A DNA stretch of 64,000 nt. Source: Macrolepiota albuminosa. Its lineage: Eukaryota; Basidiomycota; Agaricomycetes; Agaricales; Agaricaceae. The stretch is taken from positions 186,001-250,000 of the forward strand of contig JAMWFC010000115.1 of NCBI GenBank assembly GCA_027475525.1. Reading direction: 5' to 3'. This document shows, piece by piece, positions 4,594-59,000 of this stretch (position 1 is its first letter; every line of letters begins with the position of its first letter). The notes under the pieces are model-generated. The model saw only the letters and a program-made list of their open reading frames with translations. It did not search any database and was not told the DNA's origin. The position numbers were made by a program, and so were the translations under genes.

Positions 4594-4860
4594 TATTAGA
4601 ATCTGAACCTAGTGAGACCTAATAGAACACAGACACTGTTAGTGTCAATCCTCAGTCTGTATCATAAATGACTATATTTTGTACCTAATAGAACATAGAC
4701 ACCGTTAGTGTCAATCTAATGGTATGTAGTCAATATTGATATGTAAAATCTGTATATAAAATATAACTCACCCTCAGTCTGTATCATAAATGACTGAGGG
4801 TGCCCAACTATGGATGCAAGTATATAACTTGTCCAGTCCTTTATTTGTGCCATAATGATG
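4594..4860 (-). repeat. Copia-type LTR containing an intron plus its spliced duplicate (locus 1)
   Basis: The structure lies directly behind the PBS. The right end is set only roughly, because Gypsy coding relics resume near 4880. Read on the minus strand it is: TATA-like TTATATAC (4827-4820), hairpin, block B (ending ACTGAGG), a 56 nt GT...AG interval (4771-4716), block A (4715-4683), a 13 nt link GTACAAAATATAG, then B again joined directly to A (junction 4650/4649), then the LTR end and PBS. The two B blocks are identical and the two A blocks (about 33 bp) differ at two positions. The second B-A junction equals the spliced form of the first. Confidence 0.6.
4716..4771 (-). other. Intron within LTR locus 1
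   Basis: The minus strand starts GTGAGTTATA and ends CCATTAG. It is 56 nt long, typical for basidiomycete introns, with a branch-like TATTGACTAC near the 3' end. It lies between blocks B and A and is exactly absent from the adjacent B-A copy at 4650/4649. The 5' splice site GTG is the outer part of a hairpin arm (4769-4779 pairs with 4792-4802). Confidence 0.65.
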
Positions 4861-45622: not shown

Positions 45623-48600
45623 CTATCTATTCCACCCCAGGGGGCGGTCAACTCCCATACCCACTAAAACCCTTATTGCCGACTTCCATGCCTTGTGCAG
45701 TGCGAGGTATTCTGAGATGCATGGCATCCATGTGCTTGTTATCAGTTTTCTGTCCAGAGCTTTCTTTCCGTATCTCCTGTTGTCTGAGGCCATGCAATCT
45801 AGTTTTATTCTTCTCGCTATTACGGTGTTCCATCTGCATGCTACCTCTTTTTCTGAGGATATTTTTTCAGGGTCTGCGTCTCTCCTTATCTTCCATTCGC
45901 ATCTCATCTTCCATATTAGGCGTGCTGATTTGGATACGACTATCCAGAACATTCTGCTGCTTGCTTCTGTTGCTTTCCCATCCACCGTTTTGGGCCTTGC
46001 CAGGTTGCAGCCAAGGATCAGTCCTAGGCTTGGGGAGTTCCACTTTATGCCTTTCTGTTCGCATAGTGCACTTGTGCGTTTCCAGACATCCTTTTGGCCT
46101 GACGCCTCACACTGTGTTAAGATATGTTCCAGGTTTTCTTCAGTGTTGCATACGTGGCATTTGCTTCTCACTTCGTGATTCGGGATCTTTTCCCAGTACT
46201 CCCCTATCTAGTAAGTGTTGTGTATTGCCTTTCAGAGGAAGGCTCTTGCCTCCTTCATTATGGTTCTGTCCTTAAGCGACCTCCATATACTTTTGTCCAT
46301 TGGTTGGTTGCCATTTAGTTCTCCTATTGCCCACCTGATTCTGTCCAGGTTGATTGTCGTACCTCTCCTCTCAGGGGGGGGGGTTTGCCTCCCAGTATTC
46401 CTTTGTATAGGAGGGCTTGGGTTGCGGTGCTTAGCTTCATCCCTAGTGCATAGTTTCCTCTTGGTGGGTTTATATTCATCTGGTTTTCGTTGTTCATTTT
46501 TGCACCCTCCTTTGCAAGCTCATCGGCTCTATCGTTTCCTATCAGGCCACTGTGCCCTTTAACTTTTGTTAGTATTGTTTGTCCCTTTCTGCTCCTCATT
46601 TTTGCAGCTATAGCCTGCAGGATTTCTTTGTTTTCGATGCCGACCCATCCTTTGTCCTCCCATTCTGTTAGGTGCTTGGTTAGCCCCTCTATGGTAATTT
46701 TTGAGTCACTCAGGATTTCCAGGTGGTCATCTTCGTCAGTCTGGCTTGTTGTGATCAGGATTGCTAATGCCTCTCCGGCATTATTCGACTGTTTGAGGTG
46801 TGGTGGCACTTTTATTGCGGTGTTTCGTGGGTCTCCATCCCCGTACCATATGCCTGCCCCTGCTTTTGCATTCTCATACCCATTATTCTCGCAGGATCCA
46901 TCCATGTAGGCTCTGATCCACTGGGCAGGTCCTATCTTTGGCCTTGGGCTTCCCGCTACTTGTTGCGGGCTCCCACTTGTATTGCTTTTGTTCATTGTTT
47001 CAGTTTCTTCATTTGCAAAGACTCTAAAAGTTTCCTTCAGGGATGTGTCTACGTGCAAGGCTTTATTGAAGAGTATGGAGTCTTCATTGTCTAGCAGGTA
47101 TCTTATTCCTTCCCCTATTTGCTTGTTACTCAGGTTCTCTATAGTTAGGGGGTTCCATTCACCTCCGAGCGAGTTCAGAAGCCGTCTTGCGCTCTCTCCA
47201 CACTTGTGAGAGTTTTTACACCCCTCCTCTCTCATCTTCTGGCAGCTATCGCATTTGCAGTTTTTTCTCGGTTTGTGGAGCTTGTTTATGTTTCGGTTTG
47301 TCTGTTTTACAAGTGTGAGCAGATCTCCTACTGTCTTTACTCTATGGTTCCTTCTTTGACATTTCCCAGTTGCTGTGTTGAAACCAGGTCGCTTCATACC
47401 CACTAGCCCTGTATGGTACCAGATCGGCATGTCCATTCTGGTTTTGGGTTCTAATTTTGTGGGTGGCAGTTTAACTTTGTGTTTAAGTGCTGATCTTAGC
47501 ATCCTTCATAGGGAGCCCAGCAGGCCTTGCTCCCGTTCTCTTGTATCTACTTTCATGGTTTGTAGAAATACATTTTGGTAGGTCCCGTCTTCTTTTTCCC
47601 TCCATCTTTTGTTTAGGCCTATTTTTATTAGCGAGTCTGCAATTTTTGCCCAGATGGGTCTGGACTCTCCTAGGCTTAGGAATCTTTTTGTTTTCATCAG
47701 CTCTATAGCCTCGTTTCTTGCTCTCAGATCTAGGAGTTTCTTTCCTCCCTGTTCAACTGGCCTGTATAGGGTATCTAGTCCTACTGTCGGGTGTGTTGTT
47801 CCTCCCCACATGAAGTTTCTTATGATTCTTATTAGTCTCTGTTCTATTTCAGGTGGCATGCTCTGCACACTTGTCCGGTACTGGGTACGGCCCCCTATTA
47901 CCATTTCGACAATCAGGCGTCTTCCATCTATTGTCAGGTGACCCTTTTCCCATCGTTTGAGGTCCCTTGTTATAAGTTCAAGGGTGGGTGTCCATACACT
48001 TGGATTGTCAATTCCGTTTCCGATAAATGCTCCCAGCAGGCATGTAGCTTCTCCATCCTTGGTTATTTTTATTTCTTTGGGAATTTCTGGATGGGTTAGG
48101 GATGGCTTCCTTGTTTCTATTAGGCTTTTATGGAAACTCTCCATACCTACTGGTACGATTGCTGTTTTTGGTACATTGAACTTTCTTCCAGATGCGTTGC
48201 ACCAGTTTTTCAGTATTTCCTGGAGGTCATTTATGTTATCCTCTGCAGAGAGGTAGACAGTTGTATCATCTGCGAAGAGCTTTGCTATTAGACGTTCAGT
48301 CTCTCCTTCGATTTCAAAACCCTTTAACTGTGAGTCCCTTAGCATCTGTGCTAGTGATTCTATTGCAAGATTAAACAGGTGGCAGGACATTGGGTCACCT
48401 TGTCTGACACCCCGAGTAACTTTGAAGGAGGTACTTTGTTCTCCATTTATTAGTACTGTTGTCTCGGCATTCTCATACAGTGACTTAATGATCTTTATAA
48501 ACTTTCTCGGGAAGCCAAATCTTTCTAGGGTTGCCCATAAGAAGGTATGCCTTATCTTGTCGTAGGCTTTTTTCTGATCTAGGCATATGATCATGCCATT

Positions 48601-50988
48601 TATTCCTTTTCTCTCCCCCAGCTCAGTTACGAGGCTTGCTAACTCAGTCTGGTCCTCTATGTGGTGTCTTTTCATAAAGCCGGCTTGGTCTTGGTGGATG
48701 ATGTTTGGTGTCACTGAAGTCAGTCTGTTCACTATTGCTTTTGTGTATATTTTGTAATCCGTGTTTAGGACCGTTATTGGTCTGTAGTTCCCTATATTTG
48801 TTCTGTCCCCTTTTTTATATATCAGGCACATCCATCCATTTGTGAAGCCTGTTTCAGGATCTACACCGAAGTCTTCAATGTCGTTATATAGTATTGTCAG
48901 GTAGTCCACTATATCAAAGCCTGTCCTCTTCTCGGCTCTATTCTCTTGGTCTGCACTTTTCCCCTCTTCTTCTCTTTGACTTTCATTCAGGAGGCTTTTC
49001 CAGATTTCCTGTGGTATTCCATCCAGGCCCGCCACCTTTCCATTTGGAAGTTTTTCGATGGCTTCTCGCACTTTGTCATGTGTTATATTTGTCTTTATTA
49101 GTTGGGCGTGTTTCTCATTCAGTTTTACTTTTATGTGGGCAAGGGCCTTGCTTATGCTCTGTGCATGTTCGTGAGGGTTGTTCATCTGGTCTTTTGCCTG
49201 TAGGTCCTTATAGTATTTGCTTGCCAGGTTCGTCATCTTGTCTGATTGTCGTGTCAGGGGGGCATCAGGTCTGTCCAGGTCTCGGAGCGCCGCTATCATG
49301 TCTCTTTGTATTGTCTGCTTGTTTGCATTTATCCATGTTTTTCTCAGCATTTCTCCCTCTAGAAAGAACTTTGTTTCTGTGTTGTCTCGTGCTCTCAGCA
49401 TCCTCATCCTTTTAAGCTCTTTTATTCTTTCATCGATTATTGCTGCTTCCGTGTTCTTTTGTTCATCCTCCCCCTCACTTTCATTCAGGATCTTACATCT
49501 GTCAGCTTCCAGGTTGTTTATATTTCGGTCCATTTTTGATGAGAGGGTTTTCGCATACCGGCATATGGTGTTTATCATCTTTTCTTTCATCCGGCTATGT
49601 GTCTTCTGTGGGTTGGAGTCTTTCATCCTGGTCTTCTTCACTCTTTTAATCTCGTCATAATATTCTTCCCCAAGCTTGTAGAGTTCTCTTTCTAGGGGTT
49701 CATGTTCTAGGAGGAACATGGGCATTGCATATCTTCCAGGGCCCTGGTGAGGTTTCCATGGGTTTACCAGATTCATGCTTATTAGCCAGTGGTCAGTCTC
49801 GATCTCTGTACCATCAATTTGCCAGTTGTATGAGTACTCTAGGAGGTCTTCTTATATGTATATTCAGTCTATTCTTGAATGTATTTTGCCATTTTCTGTG
49901 CGGTATGTAAAATTTATTTCTGTTGGACTTTCTCTCCTCCATCCGTCAACCATGCTTAGCTGTGTTTTTAGGTCTGATAGTGCGTTTACTGTTGATGCAG
50001 GGTCAGTGTGTGCAGGTGTGCGATCTGCTGAGTCCTCGACCACGTTGAAATCGCCCAGTATACATGTGGGCTTTCCCCATCTTTCTTTTCTCCACCGTTC
50101 ACTGAGAGTCCTTCAGAATTCCTTGTTCTTTTGCGTCTGGTTTGGGGCATATATTGTTAGGCAGGAGATTTTAGTTTCCTGGGTCCATGGTATGTCCACT
50201 AAGAGGGCTCATCCTCTTATTATCACTTCTGAGCTAGCTTCCTTCCATCTAGTTGTTCCTTTGTTTAGTATGATAGCAGCTCCCATCCTATTTGGTGTTG
50301 TTTCATCTATGGTTGAGATGAAGTGCAGTCTTTTTTCATATGTCAAATTTAGTCTTTTTCTATTTTCTTCTGTAAGGTGTGTTTCCTGTATTGCAAGGAT
50401 ATCTATTTTTTCTCTCATCATCAGGCCACTAATTTTGCCCCACTTGTGTTCGGTGGTTGGTGAGCCTGTGCCTTTTATGTTCAAGGAGGCTATTTTCAAC
50501 GCTCCTCTTCTTGGCTGCTTTCTGGTTCTGTTTCTCATGTGCTCCTCAGAGTGCCTGGTTCTCTGGGTGTCATATATTTCACTTTGTGTTTCCTCTGGGC
50601 TGTTCTGCCGTTCTTCTGTAGGGGGGTGCATGTGTGCATATTGCCTCTCCTCTCTTCTTTCATTGCCCTTGTTTTGGGGCTTGCCCTCTGTGGCTCTGGC
50701 TCTATTTTGTCTAGCAGGCCCTCTGTGGGCCTCCCCCGTCTCTTTGGGGTCCCCCTCCTGTAGGGAGACAGACGTTTTTATTGTTTTATTGGCTGCTTGC
50801 CTGTCCGTGCTGGCTTCTTTAGCCTGAGTCCTCTCTGGACTCCCACCTCCGTTGCCCCAGTGGAGATCATCAGAAGTGCGAGCAGCAGCCTGGTCGTCAC
50901 TCCCTCCATCTTCTGGGGAGTTGTTGCTGTAAACCTGTGAAAAAAAGCCATAGTTAGTTGTCATATTCATTTTCTTGTACTTGTTCAT
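45623..50988 (-). pseudogene. LINE ORF2: endonuclease, reverse transcriptase, RNase H, zinc finger
   Basis: The EN region starts with ALKIASLNIKGTG and has ILAIQETHL (catalytic Glu); past in-frame TGA codons it continues with TCILGDFNVVEDSADRTP and the D-H ending EIETDHWLI. RT blocks lie in 49776-47506: VAGLDGIPQEIWKSLL, YRPITVLNTDYKIYTKAIVN, RGVRQGDPMSCHLFNLAIES and the catalytic LFADDTTVYLSAED (about 48290-48250). RNase H at about 46940-46480 shows its four acidic sites (AYMDGSCE, NNAGEALAI, ILSDSKITIEGL, GNDRADELAKEG). After a frameshift at a C10 tract (46383-46374) the frame holds the CCHC knuckle CHVCNTEENLEHILTQC. Defects are internal TGA stops near 50211, 50117, 49878 and 47506, and the C-tract shift. 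Confidence 0.85.
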
Positions 50989-52355: not shown

Positions 52356-52560
52356 TGTAACATATCGTAGTATAGTTAAATAATTAATAGACAATTATAT
52401 TAATTATTTATTATTACTTTACATACCAGCTGGCTGCCTTACATAAGGCAGCCAATTTTACTGTCATACAATTATATTAATTATTTATTATTACTTTACA
52501 TACCAGCTGGCTGCCTTACATAAGGCAGCCAATTTTACTGTCATAACTCGTAGTACTAGA
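52356..52560 (+). repeat. Candidate 5' LTR of the Gypsy element (right end unresolved)
   Basis: Begins TGTAACATATCG, agreeing with the five bases TGTAA that follow the polypurine tract at the other end (63996-64000). The inner boundary and primer-binding site could not be fixed; no clear CA-end with adjacent TGG was found. Confidence 0.5.
52391..52544 (+). repeat. Two perfect 77 bp tandem repeats
   Basis: Units 52391-52467 and 52468-52544 are identical. Each contains a perfect palindrome GGCTGCCTTA-CA-TAAGGCAGCC (10 bp arms, 2 nt loop) and an AT-rich part. They lie in the candidate 5' LTR. Confidence 0.9.
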
Positions 52561-55358: not shown

Positions 55359-56047
55359 TGTCAGGTTTCGCTGAGTCTGGGGCTTTCCATGAAAGCAACG
55401 CCCTTACAATGTGGACTTGACCTATGGATACTCAGGTGTCTGGAACTCCAGGGCTAGGATTCCGGGGTTCAAGACGTGGACAGGAGTAATCCTGGGAGGA
55501 GGGGACTCAGTCCGGGGTTTTTGGTTGTGAGTAGCTGGGGGATTGGGTGGGGTTGAGTCGTGAACCGGAGGTTCTAAGACAAGACCAAGTTAGCGAGTTA
55601 AAGTCATGAAGTACGTACCAAACTTAGAGCATGCAGTTATTCAAGTGTGCCAGTCAAAAGCATGCCAGTCAGTGCATACCAATCAAGCAAAGGGCACACA
55701 ACAATCAAAGTTAATATCAAGACTAGCGAATACAACGGGGAACTATGCTATAAGTACTACGGGACTGGGTCTCGGGGTTCCGGGAGTCATTGAGTAGTGG
55801 GCAGGGACTGTATACTTGGATTGCACGTGTGGGGTGCACAATCAATTGGCACGGAGGGAGCTGTGATGTGTGATGCGTGATGGCCGGAAGTGAGTCACGT
55901 GATCTGATCGTTGATTGGGGCTGGTGGTGGCTGATGGCGGTGTCAGTAGTCGTGATGGCAGGGTGTGTCCTGTGGAGTTGGAGGGAGGGTCCCGGATGGT
56001 GTTCCGGGGGTGTCCTGGGGTGGGTCCGGAGGGGAGGGGTCGTGACA
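55359..56047 (+). repeat. Solo LTR (family A), complete, with target duplication
   Basis: The 689 bp unit starts TGTCA and ends TGACA (5 bp inverted ends) and is flanked by CTCAG on both sides (55354-55358 and 56048-56052). Leaving out the unit and one CTCAG (694 bp) brings the upstream gag frame and the downstream protease frame into register, which confirms the borders. It is the same family and orientation as 1-712. It has no internal coding region. Confidence 0.93.
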
Positions 56048-56052
56048 CTCAG

Positions 56053-59000
56053 TCCTGAAGCACCAGAGGATGAAAATGCCTCTGGAGTAGAAGAGTTGTT
56101 GGATGACAAATACGTTGAGGTTGACGTATACAACAACGACTATTATGCCCAGGAGTCAGACTCAGAATTCATGGGAGCTCTGATGGACTACCCGGCCAGC
56201 GCATTAGACCGACCAGTTGGAGCAGCCAATGTGAAGGTGTATAAGGTACACCTTTGCAAGGCTCCAGAGAAGCTGGTGAGACTGGTGTTGAAGCACAAGG
56301 ACAAGGAGTGCCTGGCATCGTACGTTGAGGTGGATGGCCACAAGGCATGGACATTGTGGGATTCAGGTAGTACAACTACTGGGGTGACACCTCAGTTTTG
56401 TCAAGTGCATGATATCTCTGTCAGTGAGTTGAAGGAGCCACTACTCCTTCAATTGGGTACTGTGGGCAGTTGAGCTACAGTACAGTTTGGCATGCAGGCG
56501 AGTATTGCCTGTGCAAAATCCAGGATGAAAGAGTACCTTGACGTGGCAAATTTTGATCAATACGACTTGATTATAGGCATGCCGTATATGAGAAAGCACA
56601 AGGTTCTGCTTGATTTCAAGAAGAATGAGATAGTGGTGGATGGCACCACCATTCCTGCAGTGTGAGTGACCATAGATAATGGCGATGGACATCTCCATCA
56701 ACACCGCGCCACAGAGAAGAAGGTGCTAGTCAGGTGACACCGACTAGATGGAGGCAATAAATCGCCTACGGTGGAGGATGGAGAGGATGAGGAGCAAGCT
56801 CATGTGAGCTTGCCAGCAGATAGCCCAGCGGTGTTGATGCTGGAAAGCGAGGCTGTAAAGTACAAACATACTCTGAAGAGGGGGGAGAGCCCCAAGATGA
56901 AGTATGAAAGGCAGAGTAAGCCTGAGGACAAGTGGCCTCAGCACACGGCAAGCACAGAGTGCCAACTGACGTCGTCGTGAGTGAAGGTTGAGGACTTAGT
57001 AACGGATGACAAATAAGGACTGATGGAGGACAAGGCGTCCTCCACACATACAAATCGGTCAATCTGGGATCAACCGGTACCTCATCCCACGTTTGAATAG
57101 GTGTTTGATCCACGAATGCCTGCTGAGTAGAATGAGCTAGTGGCATCAATGTATGCGTGGAATGGACCATGATGGACATCGAAGGAGGAGTCATATCGTC
57201 AGGCTAGTGATGACGAGATATTGCCACCAAGTGAGGTATTCTTTGACAGACTGTCTGTGATGTCGTGGAGAAGCAAGAAGGAGGTGCCTGTGCGACTGCA
57301 CACACTAGATGACAGTGAGCTGAGGATTACTGCCCTCAGAGAGAAGTATGGCCGCCCAGCCATACAAGCAAAGCTGTCCGGGCATCCATGCAAGGATGTA
57401 GACTGGAAGGGCAAAGGTAAAACCAGTGGTTTTATGGAGGAGGACATTCCAGACCTACAATTGCAGTGGCAGCAGGAATTTGGGGATATTCTGAATAGAA
57501 CCAAGGAGGAGTTACCTTCTTGGCATGAGGTCAACTATGAAATCAACCTTATTGATGAGACAAAGGTGTATCAATATCATTTGCTACAATGTCCAATGGC
57601 ACTGCAGCAGCAGCTCCGAGACAAGACCAATCGGTATCTGAGAGCCCACTGGTGGAAGGCCCAACCGGCATCCCAAGCTGCTCCGCTATTGTGCATTCCG
57701 AAGAAAGATGATACCTTGAGGACGGCGTTGGATGCTCACCAACGCAATGACAACACTGTAAAGGACATGACGCCACTCCTGGATCAGGAAGTGATTCAAG
57801 AGGATGTTTCCAGAGCAAAGTTCAGGTCAAAAATTGACCTGATGGACACTTATGAGCAAGTGAGAATTTGCTTGTCTGATATCCCAAAGACAGTGTTCTC
57901 ATCAATCATGGGAACATATGTGAGCAACATTATGCAGATAGGAGATTGTAATGCTCCTGCAATGTTTCAGAGGTTGATGACCTCCATCTTCCAGGATGTT
58001 ATCAGGAGGTTTGTTCATATATATCTGGACAACATATTCATATACTCCGATTCAATCGAAGAACATGAAGAGCATCTTCATGTCATTTTTGAGCGACTGA
58101 GGTCTAATCTACTGTACCTCAAGTGGAAGAAATGTGAACTATATGCCGAGACAGTAGACTGCCTTGGACACAAGATTGACAGTCAGGGTATTCACCCTGA
58201 CCAGGACAAAATCGATCGCATACGCGAATGGCGTGTGCCTCGTAATTATAACAATGTGCAAAGATTCGTGAGACTGGTGAACTATATCGGCAACTGTCTG
58301 CCTGATATTACAGCGTATACTGGACCCTTGATGTCCATCATGCAGAACTGAGCTCCATTTATATGGAGACCTATACACCAGCGCTGTTTTGAGATGATCA
58401 AGAGGATCTGCCCAAAGACACCAGTCATTTGTCCCATAGATCCCCAACGTGATGAGCTGATTTGGCTCATCTGTGATGCCTCAAAGACTGGAGTAGGTGC
58501 AATGTATGGCCAGGGAAGTTCCTGGCAGAATTGTCAGCCAGCGGGGTTCATGTTGAGGAAGTTCACCTCAGCCCAACAGAATTATGTGGTCCATGAGCTC
58601 GAAACGCTGGCAATACTTGAGGCACTCCTTAAAGGAAGTTCACCTCAGCCCAACAGAATTATGTGGTCCATGAGCTCGAAACGCTGGCAATACTTGAGGC
58701 ACTCCTTAAGTGGGAAGACAAATTGATGGGATACAAGATCCACATCATTACAGACCATAAAGCACTTGAGTTCTTCAAGACTCAAGCAACGTTGTCTCCC
58801 AGGCAATGCCGGTGGATTGACTATATGTCTCGCTACAACTTTGACATCACATATGTCAAAGGCAAACTGAACAAGGTAGCGGACTGTCTCTCAAGGTATT
58901 TTGAGAGCAATAGAGTTGGTGAACACCATGATACGCATGATTATGTTGATGGGGATATTCATATTGATTCCCAGGGCAATGATCTTCCATACCATCACTA

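Follow-up and report, generated by a model that had tools for sequence, protein, structure and literature searches.

Textbooks attribute the loss of introns to reverse transcription of spliced RNA, and the presence of two identical poly(A) sites, one at each end of an LTR element, is an old problem. Retroviruses of the HTLV/BLV type carry their major splice donor in R, with acceptors far downstream, and to our knowledge their spliced RNAs are not the normal template. Foamy viruses reverse-transcribe a genomic RNA in which the LTR donor is left unspliced. The parts of the foamy virus literature considered here describe an LTR splice donor upstream of the poly(A) signal, at which U1 suppresses polyadenylation in the 5′ copy, and 13 nt upstream of the start, found only in the 3′ copy, that alter the fold around the donor (PMC3694450). 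EVADE, a Ty1/copia element of Arabidopsis, and Ogre are described, in the section of the account drawn on, as LTR elements with spliceosomal introns that serve the production of subgenomic RNAs (PMC12786077), while for the fungal GalEa copia elements the relevant passages report a conserved hairpin at the primer binding site (PBS) that is thought to act in replication (PMC5445492). A word search of the open-access literature returned no description of introns inside retrotransposon LTRs of the kind considered below.

The locus lies in the window, that is, the whole 64,000-nt stretch of Macrolepiota albuminosa DNA that was analyzed, and is a copia-type LTR of 356 bp (TGTTGGAAT...GATTCTAATA; 4949-4594, delimited by LTR alignment) on the minus strand, to which all features of the element given here belong. 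A TATATA box (4826-4821) begins 31 nt ahead of the A that opens B1 (4795-4772), a 24-nt block interpreted as exon 1, with a putative transcription start at 4795 placed by the onset of homology with B2 and by the TATA spacing. The heptamer CACCCTC immediately upstream of this start (4802-4796) is the left arm of an inverted repeat whose right arm (4775-4769) covers donor 1. Intron 1 follows, a 56-nt interval with the ends GTGAGT..CATTAG (4771-4716) that is recognized from the sequence, from a split-repeat scan and from other copies, and then A1 (4715-4685), a 31-nt block ending in CTATTAG that would constitute exon 2, defined likewise from the sequence and other copies. An 11-nt spacer, x (4684-4674), opens with a candidate donor 2, GTACAA, and closes with AATAT, which together with the first base of the next block forms the poly(A)-signal-like hexamer AATATA (4678-4673). 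This next block, B2 (4673-4650), is identical to B1 at 24/24 positions and is fused directly to A2 (4649-4619), which matches A1 at 31/33 positions of the homologous block; the fusion point falls precisely where the 56-nt interval splits B1 from A1. B2 and A2 are the putative reverse-transcribed copies of exons 1 and 2, and x, B2, and A2 together would form a 66-nt intron 2 (GTACAA..CTATTAG; 4684-4619) with the end of A2 as its 3′ splice site. U5 (4618-4594) reads as the first part of exon 3 and is followed by the putative PBS GGTTATGGGC (4593-4584), whose bases would pair with the anticodon arm of a tRNA of initiator type.

An earlier note on this DNA had described B, the 56-nt interval and A, followed by B fused to A at 4650/4649, all of which can be read directly on the minus strand. 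The TATA-like box that it placed about 27 nt before the first B is present at a distance of 31 nt, and a candidate for the half-tRNA iMet primer site that it named is likewise there, although the match to the anticodon arm needs a putative tRNA intron to be left out. The second intron-like segment (4684-4619) goes beyond the parts it had listed, and its numbering of the site as locus 1, which implied further loci in the window, found no counterpart: no second copy of the element was found in the 64 kb. The split-repeat scan, run over both strands with 10-nt flanks, returned 4795-4594 as the single site in the window (in two registers 1 nt apart, one of them GT-AG), and there were no split repeats in 10 Markov-shuffled windows of one strand each. 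Beyond the LTR, a fragment of the element (2958-2299) contains a GAG-pre-integrase domain just over the cut-off and an integrase core under it, so that the window copy itself is represented by gag_pre-integrs and a weak rve match only; by eye, its gag region reads as broken, and no 3′ LTR was seen in the 900 bases past the window edge, where other DNA lies. Another repeat is found at that edge (1-65), in the place where the 3′ part of the element should go on, with an 89% identical copy at 55416-55480 and a further occurrence in another locus (L170). Elsewhere in the window, 47509-49776 carries the RVT_1 reverse transcriptase of a different retroelement in a 756-aa ORF. An exchanger gene has counterparts in Termitomyces with identities of 82%, 68%, and 67%, and the remaining named ones among the matches listed fall below 45%, which makes Termitomyces or a close relative the probable source of the assembly.

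Copies elsewhere in the genome allow the element to be classified. When six ORFs beside LTRs of this type were scanned, copia-type gag or RVT_2 polymerase was found in five of them (Retrotran_gag_2 in L058, L059:1836-2705, and L071; RVT_2 in L057 and L072; Pol_BBD in L071), and L059:87-1379 gave no match. Fifteen LTR pairs were aligned, and a 5-bp target duplication is readable in 11 (AAAAG, TAGTC, GCCTT, GGAGT, GAGAA, ATAGA, CAACT, GATGG, TACAT, CATAC, and CAGGC), the remaining four being unreadable from the output. With gag, RVT_2, paired LTRs, a PBS, and a short target duplication, these are Ty1/copia LTR retrotransposons. The 25 distinct PBS strings comprise GGTTATGGGC (18), GGTTATGGGA (5), and GGTTATAGGC (2), in which GGTTAT(A/G)GG is fixed by the search string. 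A tRNA gene of initiator type (L193, approximately 1483-1565) matches the PBS over 10 nt in its anticodon arm once the putative intron in its anticodon loop, between CCCATA and ACCCC, is removed, and the primer site fits the spliced form of this tRNA only. ARAGORN labels the gene tRNA-Tyr, presumably owing to the putative intron. Searches with three patterns for an initiator tRNA found none, probably because the gene has an anticodon-loop intron, and a half-gene pattern matched 11 places.

A similarity search of the 100-Mb assembly yielded at least 42 matches, and the same order of parts recurs in LTRs of quite different sequence. The pattern CCTCAGTC-(5-20)-GACTGAGGGTGAG, which fixes the two arms and donor 1 (GTGAG) and nothing downstream, occurs at 330 places in the genome and at none when read backwards; no match was found in viral contigs, and a single one in a prokaryote contig (Humibacillus, L171) is perhaps due to chance. 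The loci collected, all copies coming from one genome, contain 103 distinct pattern sites once identical copies are collapsed. B-intron-A and B-A, for whose joint presence the earlier note had proposed to check other copies, stand together in 73 of these sites, in the full form U3-B-intron1-A-x-B-A-U5. B2 is lacking in 27 sites, about 16 of which read by eye as U3-B-intron1-A-U5 and the rest as broken or cut, and 3 of the 103 are upstream copies of 77-bp duplications. Clustering of the 73 full copies by single linkage at 75% identity of the U3 end plus intron 1 gives 28 families. A second group, found through L012, has the pattern CCTCAG..CTGAGGNTGTRAGT, with 261 matches (some loci match on both strands) and none read backwards; a script recognized the full form in 12 of 20 fetched loci, with introns 1 of the type GTAAGT/GTGAGT..AG, A1 ending at AG/GT in 12/12, and A2 ending in AG in 11/12. 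Since this group shows the same arrangement with other arms and donors, the architecture is not bound to one sequence. A looser scan of 39 loci found by similarity, including L044 and L045, which match flanking DNA only, detected a GT-AG split repeat in 17 (in L012 at a second, different LTR), while the others failed, as judged by eye, mostly through mismatches beside the junction or for want of B2; it also returned 195 non-GT-AG matches, which by locus trace mainly to tandemly duplicated sequence at a small number of places, L032 and L042 among them. The assembly has, at several sites, exact 77-bp duplications in direct tandem (52391-52544 and 58556-58709 of the window; L050, L093, and L094) and are probably an assembly artifact in which a k = 77 overlap was left unmerged. 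Such an artifact was considered as the source of the B-A copies and rejected, as these lack the intron and have spacings other than those of the 77-bp duplications.

The borders of the repeated blocks coincide with splice sites. The earlier note would have been contradicted by B-A joins away from the intron borders in other copies; an AG stands directly before A1 in 69 of the 73 full copies, the exceptions being three with TAA and one with AAC. Intron 1 extends from GTGAG, which is pattern-fixed, to AG in 69/73 copies with a length of 47-64 nt, and a CT(A/G/T)AY branch motif is present in 69/73 introns 1 but in only 42/73 of the A blocks. Treated as a GT..AG excision of one repeat period, intron 2 has a solution in 59/73 copies, unique in each, with GT immediately following A1 and an AG closing A2; the excised lengths are 51-70 nt, plus one case of 147 nt with a tandem duplication, and the donors are mostly GTAC or GTAT (GTACAG 30, GTACAA 6, GTATGN 10, and others). 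In their GT..AG ends, in lengths usual for fungi, and in the branch motif, these segments have the features of spliceosomal introns. This strict test fails in 14/73 copies, six of which are, by eye, LTRs without a PBS from families that take the final G from the PBS, and the remainder mutated or affected by indels. In families such as those of L071, L115, L116, L129, and L130, which L104, L108, L111, and L131 resemble, U5 is missing: exon A (..TCTACA) closes the LTR, the final G of the 3′ splice site is contributed by the PBS, and intron 2 would be spliceable in the 5′ LTR only. The bases after A2 are not GT in 17/59 copies of the main group and 11/12 of the second, and homology there stops at AG or one base beyond; where exon 3 lacks GT in this way, the right border cannot be due to shared bases. 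Removal of intron 1 alone would give the strong-stop B-A-x-B-A-U5, so that a second excision of one repeat period is needed, and the limits of the shared blocks imply that the two copies hold what a twice-spliced leader would contain, from the start site to donor 2. At the level of sequence, the evidence for intron 2 is strong.

Identity between B1 and B2 and between A1 and A2 averages 97.3% within an LTR, and between families it is 72.6% for B and 57.1% for A, the figure for B being raised by the pattern-fixed arms, which makes the contrast between within and between conservative. Family representatives were compared in 378 pairs, leaving aside those of unequal length, and B sites carried the same change in both copies 408 times, in copy 1 only 13 times, in copy 2 only 47 times, and other combinations 12 times; the corresponding counts for A sites were 262, 10, 6, and 12. 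These counts indicate that the paired blocks are subject to concerted evolution. Residual differences within LTRs are mostly transitions (81/98, with 5 of the 98 resulting from misplaced alignment of L038), an excess as expected from post-insertion decay. In L084 and its duplicate L085, two adjacent B2 bases differ from B1 and match both B copies of L147, and may record a strong-stop cDNA that passed from the RNA of one element to that of another. At the base before B2, 0.49 of 65 close pairs (which are non-independent) show a mismatch, compared with 0.05-0.34 at the 11 preceding positions; cap copying or a non-templated base at the transfer junction was considered and set aside, there being no G excess and the same base being the free base of AATANA.

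We put at roughly four in five the probability that this Ty1/copia element rebuilds its LTR from a twice-spliced 5′ leader and an unspliced 3′ end. The architecture, the splice-site borders, the concerted evolution, the LTRs exactly without both introns, and the covarying inverted repeat are properties of the DNA, and from them we infer splicing, the start site, poly(A) use, the function of the hairpin, and strand transfer to B2. Transcription would start at B1 and produce a leader of three exons, namely B, A, and U5 onward, with intron 1 lying between B and A, and intron 2 composed of the spacer and the B-A copy of an earlier generation, whose A would supply the 3′ splice site. The RNA 5′ end, spliced to B-A-U5-PBS and primed probably by half a tRNA-iMet, would yield the strong-stop cDNA B-A-U5. 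The RNA 3′ end, derived from the second LTR, would keep intron 1 and terminate downstream of the poly(A)-like signal, within B2 or beyond it; pairing of the strong-stop with this 3′ B2 and its extension through x, A1, intron 1, B1, and U3 would recreate U3-B-intron1-A-x-[B-A]-U5, with B2-A2 reset from B1-A1 in each cycle. The introns would thereby survive reverse transcription because the spliced exon copy sits downstream of the intron. The core of the earlier proposal, an LTR rebuilt per cycle from an unspliced and a spliced part, is retained here, other copies showing both B-intron-A and B-A. It also seems likely that the arrangement is a self-renewing intron system, in which leader splicing is part of each cycle, the exons are written back as the 3′ half of the intron, the 5′ poly(A) site is spliced out, and a hairpin dependent on the start site keeps the 3′ copy unspliced.

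Several features near the start site accord with such a cycle. Over the 28 families, homology between the copies opens at the A of AGTC, with identities of 1.00, 0.96, 1.00, and 0.82 at +1 to +4 and 0.43, 0.32, 0.21, and 0.04 at -1 to -4, CCTCAGTC being pattern-fixed in copy 1 and free in copy 2. A TATA-like hexamer (from a loose set of strings) lies 26-36 nt upstream in 58/73 copies compared with 60/1460 shuffles, and 14/73 copies have none in the last 60 nt. Homology onset and TATA spacing together suggest that B2 begins where the RNA would start, as strand transfer from the 5′ end requires. The bases just 5′ of the start are capable of pairing with the end of exon 1 and donor 1 as an inverted repeat. 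Eight of these pairs are imposed by the search pattern in the main group; at least three further outward pairs, reaching the GUG of the donor, are present in 21/28 families, with a mean of 2.68 extra outward pairs compared with 1.26 for unrelated U3 pieces. In the second group, the left-arm base opposite N is complementary in 19/20 loci (C/G 9, A/T 5, T/A 5, and one mismatch), against a mean of 7.2 and a maximum of 17 in 10,000 permutations, the loci not all being independent, and L118 has yet other arms that also cover the donor. In computed folds, the mean probability that the donor GU is paired to the 12 nt preceding the start is 0.81 (28 families) and 0.93 (20 loci), compared with 0.18 and 0.14 for shuffled U3; bare accessibility of the donor changes modestly, from 0.30 to 0.18 (0.25 when shuffled), and is lower in 60/73 copies. 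Predicted pairing and covariation at donor 1 agree. An RNA starting at AGTC would lack the left arm and the RNA 3′ end would include it, so the hairpin is possible only in the 3′ copy, where U3 is transcribed; there it could hide donor 1, probably shielding it from U1, such that intron 1 stays and the poly(A) site acts.

The candidate signal for that site, an AATANA hexamer that overlaps B2 by its final base, is present in 39/73 copies and 14/28 families (shuffled mean 0.75, maximum 4) and is missing in the other half of the families; that it never precedes B1 is uninformative, since the pattern fixes those bases. If poly(A) cleavage takes place at the usual distance of 10-30 nt after the signal, the RNA would end in B2/A2 and R would be equivalent to B2. 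The signal also lies inside intron 2, so that splicing would remove it from the 5′ leader, and the poly(A) site of the 5′ copy would be lost along with the intron.

LTRs without introns were sought with a further pattern, which gave 51 matches, 32 of which were fetched and read by eye. Thirteen of the 32, about 11 of them distinct, have the form U3-B-A-U5 with both introns exactly gone (L140, L143, L144, L148, L150, L154-L156, L160, L162, L163, L167, and L169), and the 32 include no clear case in which intron 1 alone is gone, L149 and L166 being ambiguous in that they may lack intron 1 and have an unrecognizable A2. About 14 have only point changes at donor 1, for example GGATGAG in L138, L142, L145-L147, L153, L158, L164, and L165; L141/L159 and L161 are otherwise altered, and of the 19 other matches, several seem to be the palindromic arms read in reverse. 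Pairing of the strong-stop with B1 in place of B2 would produce U3-B-A-U5 LTRs, which would then be an indirect sign of intron removal from RNA, and intron-free and single-B-A LTRs could alternatively originate by deletion between short direct repeats. The 5′ and 3′ LTRs of one insertion flanked by AAAAG (L054 and L053) differ, the former having the full form and the latter lacking x-B2-A2, and this difference within one insertion means that certain reduced forms originate at a late stage of the cycle or independently of it.

Other processes may be envisaged for the same arrangement. If replication were classical, with an unspliced template and R from B1, the B-A duplicate would have arisen once from spliced cDNA and been kept identical by gene conversion or recombination. 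The exact junction would be accounted for with an LTR unchanged per cycle, one- or no-intron LTRs could be deletions between repeats, and the difference in form between L053 and L054 is in keeping with such a history; conversion tracts, however, would have to homogenize short B (22-32 nt) and A (18-34 nt) blocks around a retained intron, and would be needed in each of the 28 families without tract spread or intron removal, which renders the explanation improbable. Splicing of intron 1 alone followed by transfer of the strong-stop B-A-x-B-A-U5, which is what the earlier note proposed if taken literally, is very unlikely. This single splice would be enough for one B-A junction, but the repeat would then be expected to grow into B-A arrays, or LTRs to lose intron 1 alone, and neither is clear (0/32, with the two ambiguous loci), and both the donor that follows A1 and the AG that closes A2 (59/73; 11/12 in the second group) are left unexplained; it is here that a second GT..AG intron has to be added to the earlier proposal.

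Selection on the sequence itself, for instance on protein binding sites, might keep B1 equal to B2 and A1 equal to A2, and the arms CCTCAGTC/GACTGAGG do recur at 330 places, the pattern itself fixing those arms. Nevertheless, the loops of B and most of A are free to diverge from one family to the next (73% and 57% identity, with the fixed arms raising the former value) but do so jointly in both copies, and we consider selection of this kind highly improbable. We would give hardly any credence to an introner-like intron having inserted into the first copy of a tandem duplication. A 56-nt intron-like insert in one of two repeats is what such an event would leave; against it, intron 1 and the U3 end vary between families (mean identity 0.64) at a constant intron position, and both copies change in concert. 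The near-identical introns at unrelated positions that characterize introners were not found among the 73 full copies, whose introns always lie between B and A.

Under the preferred reading, in which a spliced 5′ leader and an unspliced 3′ end jointly rebuild the LTR, the element seems to retain two introns by writing a spliced copy back downstream of the intron, and as a result splicing would underlie the borders of the LTR, its R region, and strand transfer. If true, a 5′ poly(A) site cut out as an intron would be a solution to the problem that both ends of an LTR element carry the same poly(A) site. Candidate places in this one mushroom genome number in the hundreds.

Retroviruses of the HTLV/BLV type share with the mushroom elements a splice donor within the LTR. 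In foamy viruses, we know of no second B-A copy and of no intron excised within the LTR. Theirs is nonetheless the closest published logic found, at least in the parts of the literature considered, in combining an LTR donor before the poly(A) signal with a difference in fold between the 5′ and 3′ copies (PMC3694450). Membership of this virus group was considered and rejected, as copia gag and RVT_2 were found instead of spumaretroviral proteins. For EVADE and Ogre the difference is that the section of the account drawn on mentions no intron within the LTR (PMC12786077). GalEa is similar in being a fungal copia element with a conserved hairpin, but there the hairpin takes the place of the PBS and lies away from any splice donor, and words for introns or splicing are missing from the text as consulted (PMC5445492). 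With Ty1/copia elements (Pseudoviridae) at large, the mushroom elements have in common the copia gag, RVT_2, a putative primer site of the half-tRNA-iMet type, LTR ends of the TG..CA type, and 5-bp duplications; to these they add two introns and a putative spliced retro-copy inside the LTR, which would itself be rebuilt from spliced and unspliced RNA ends.
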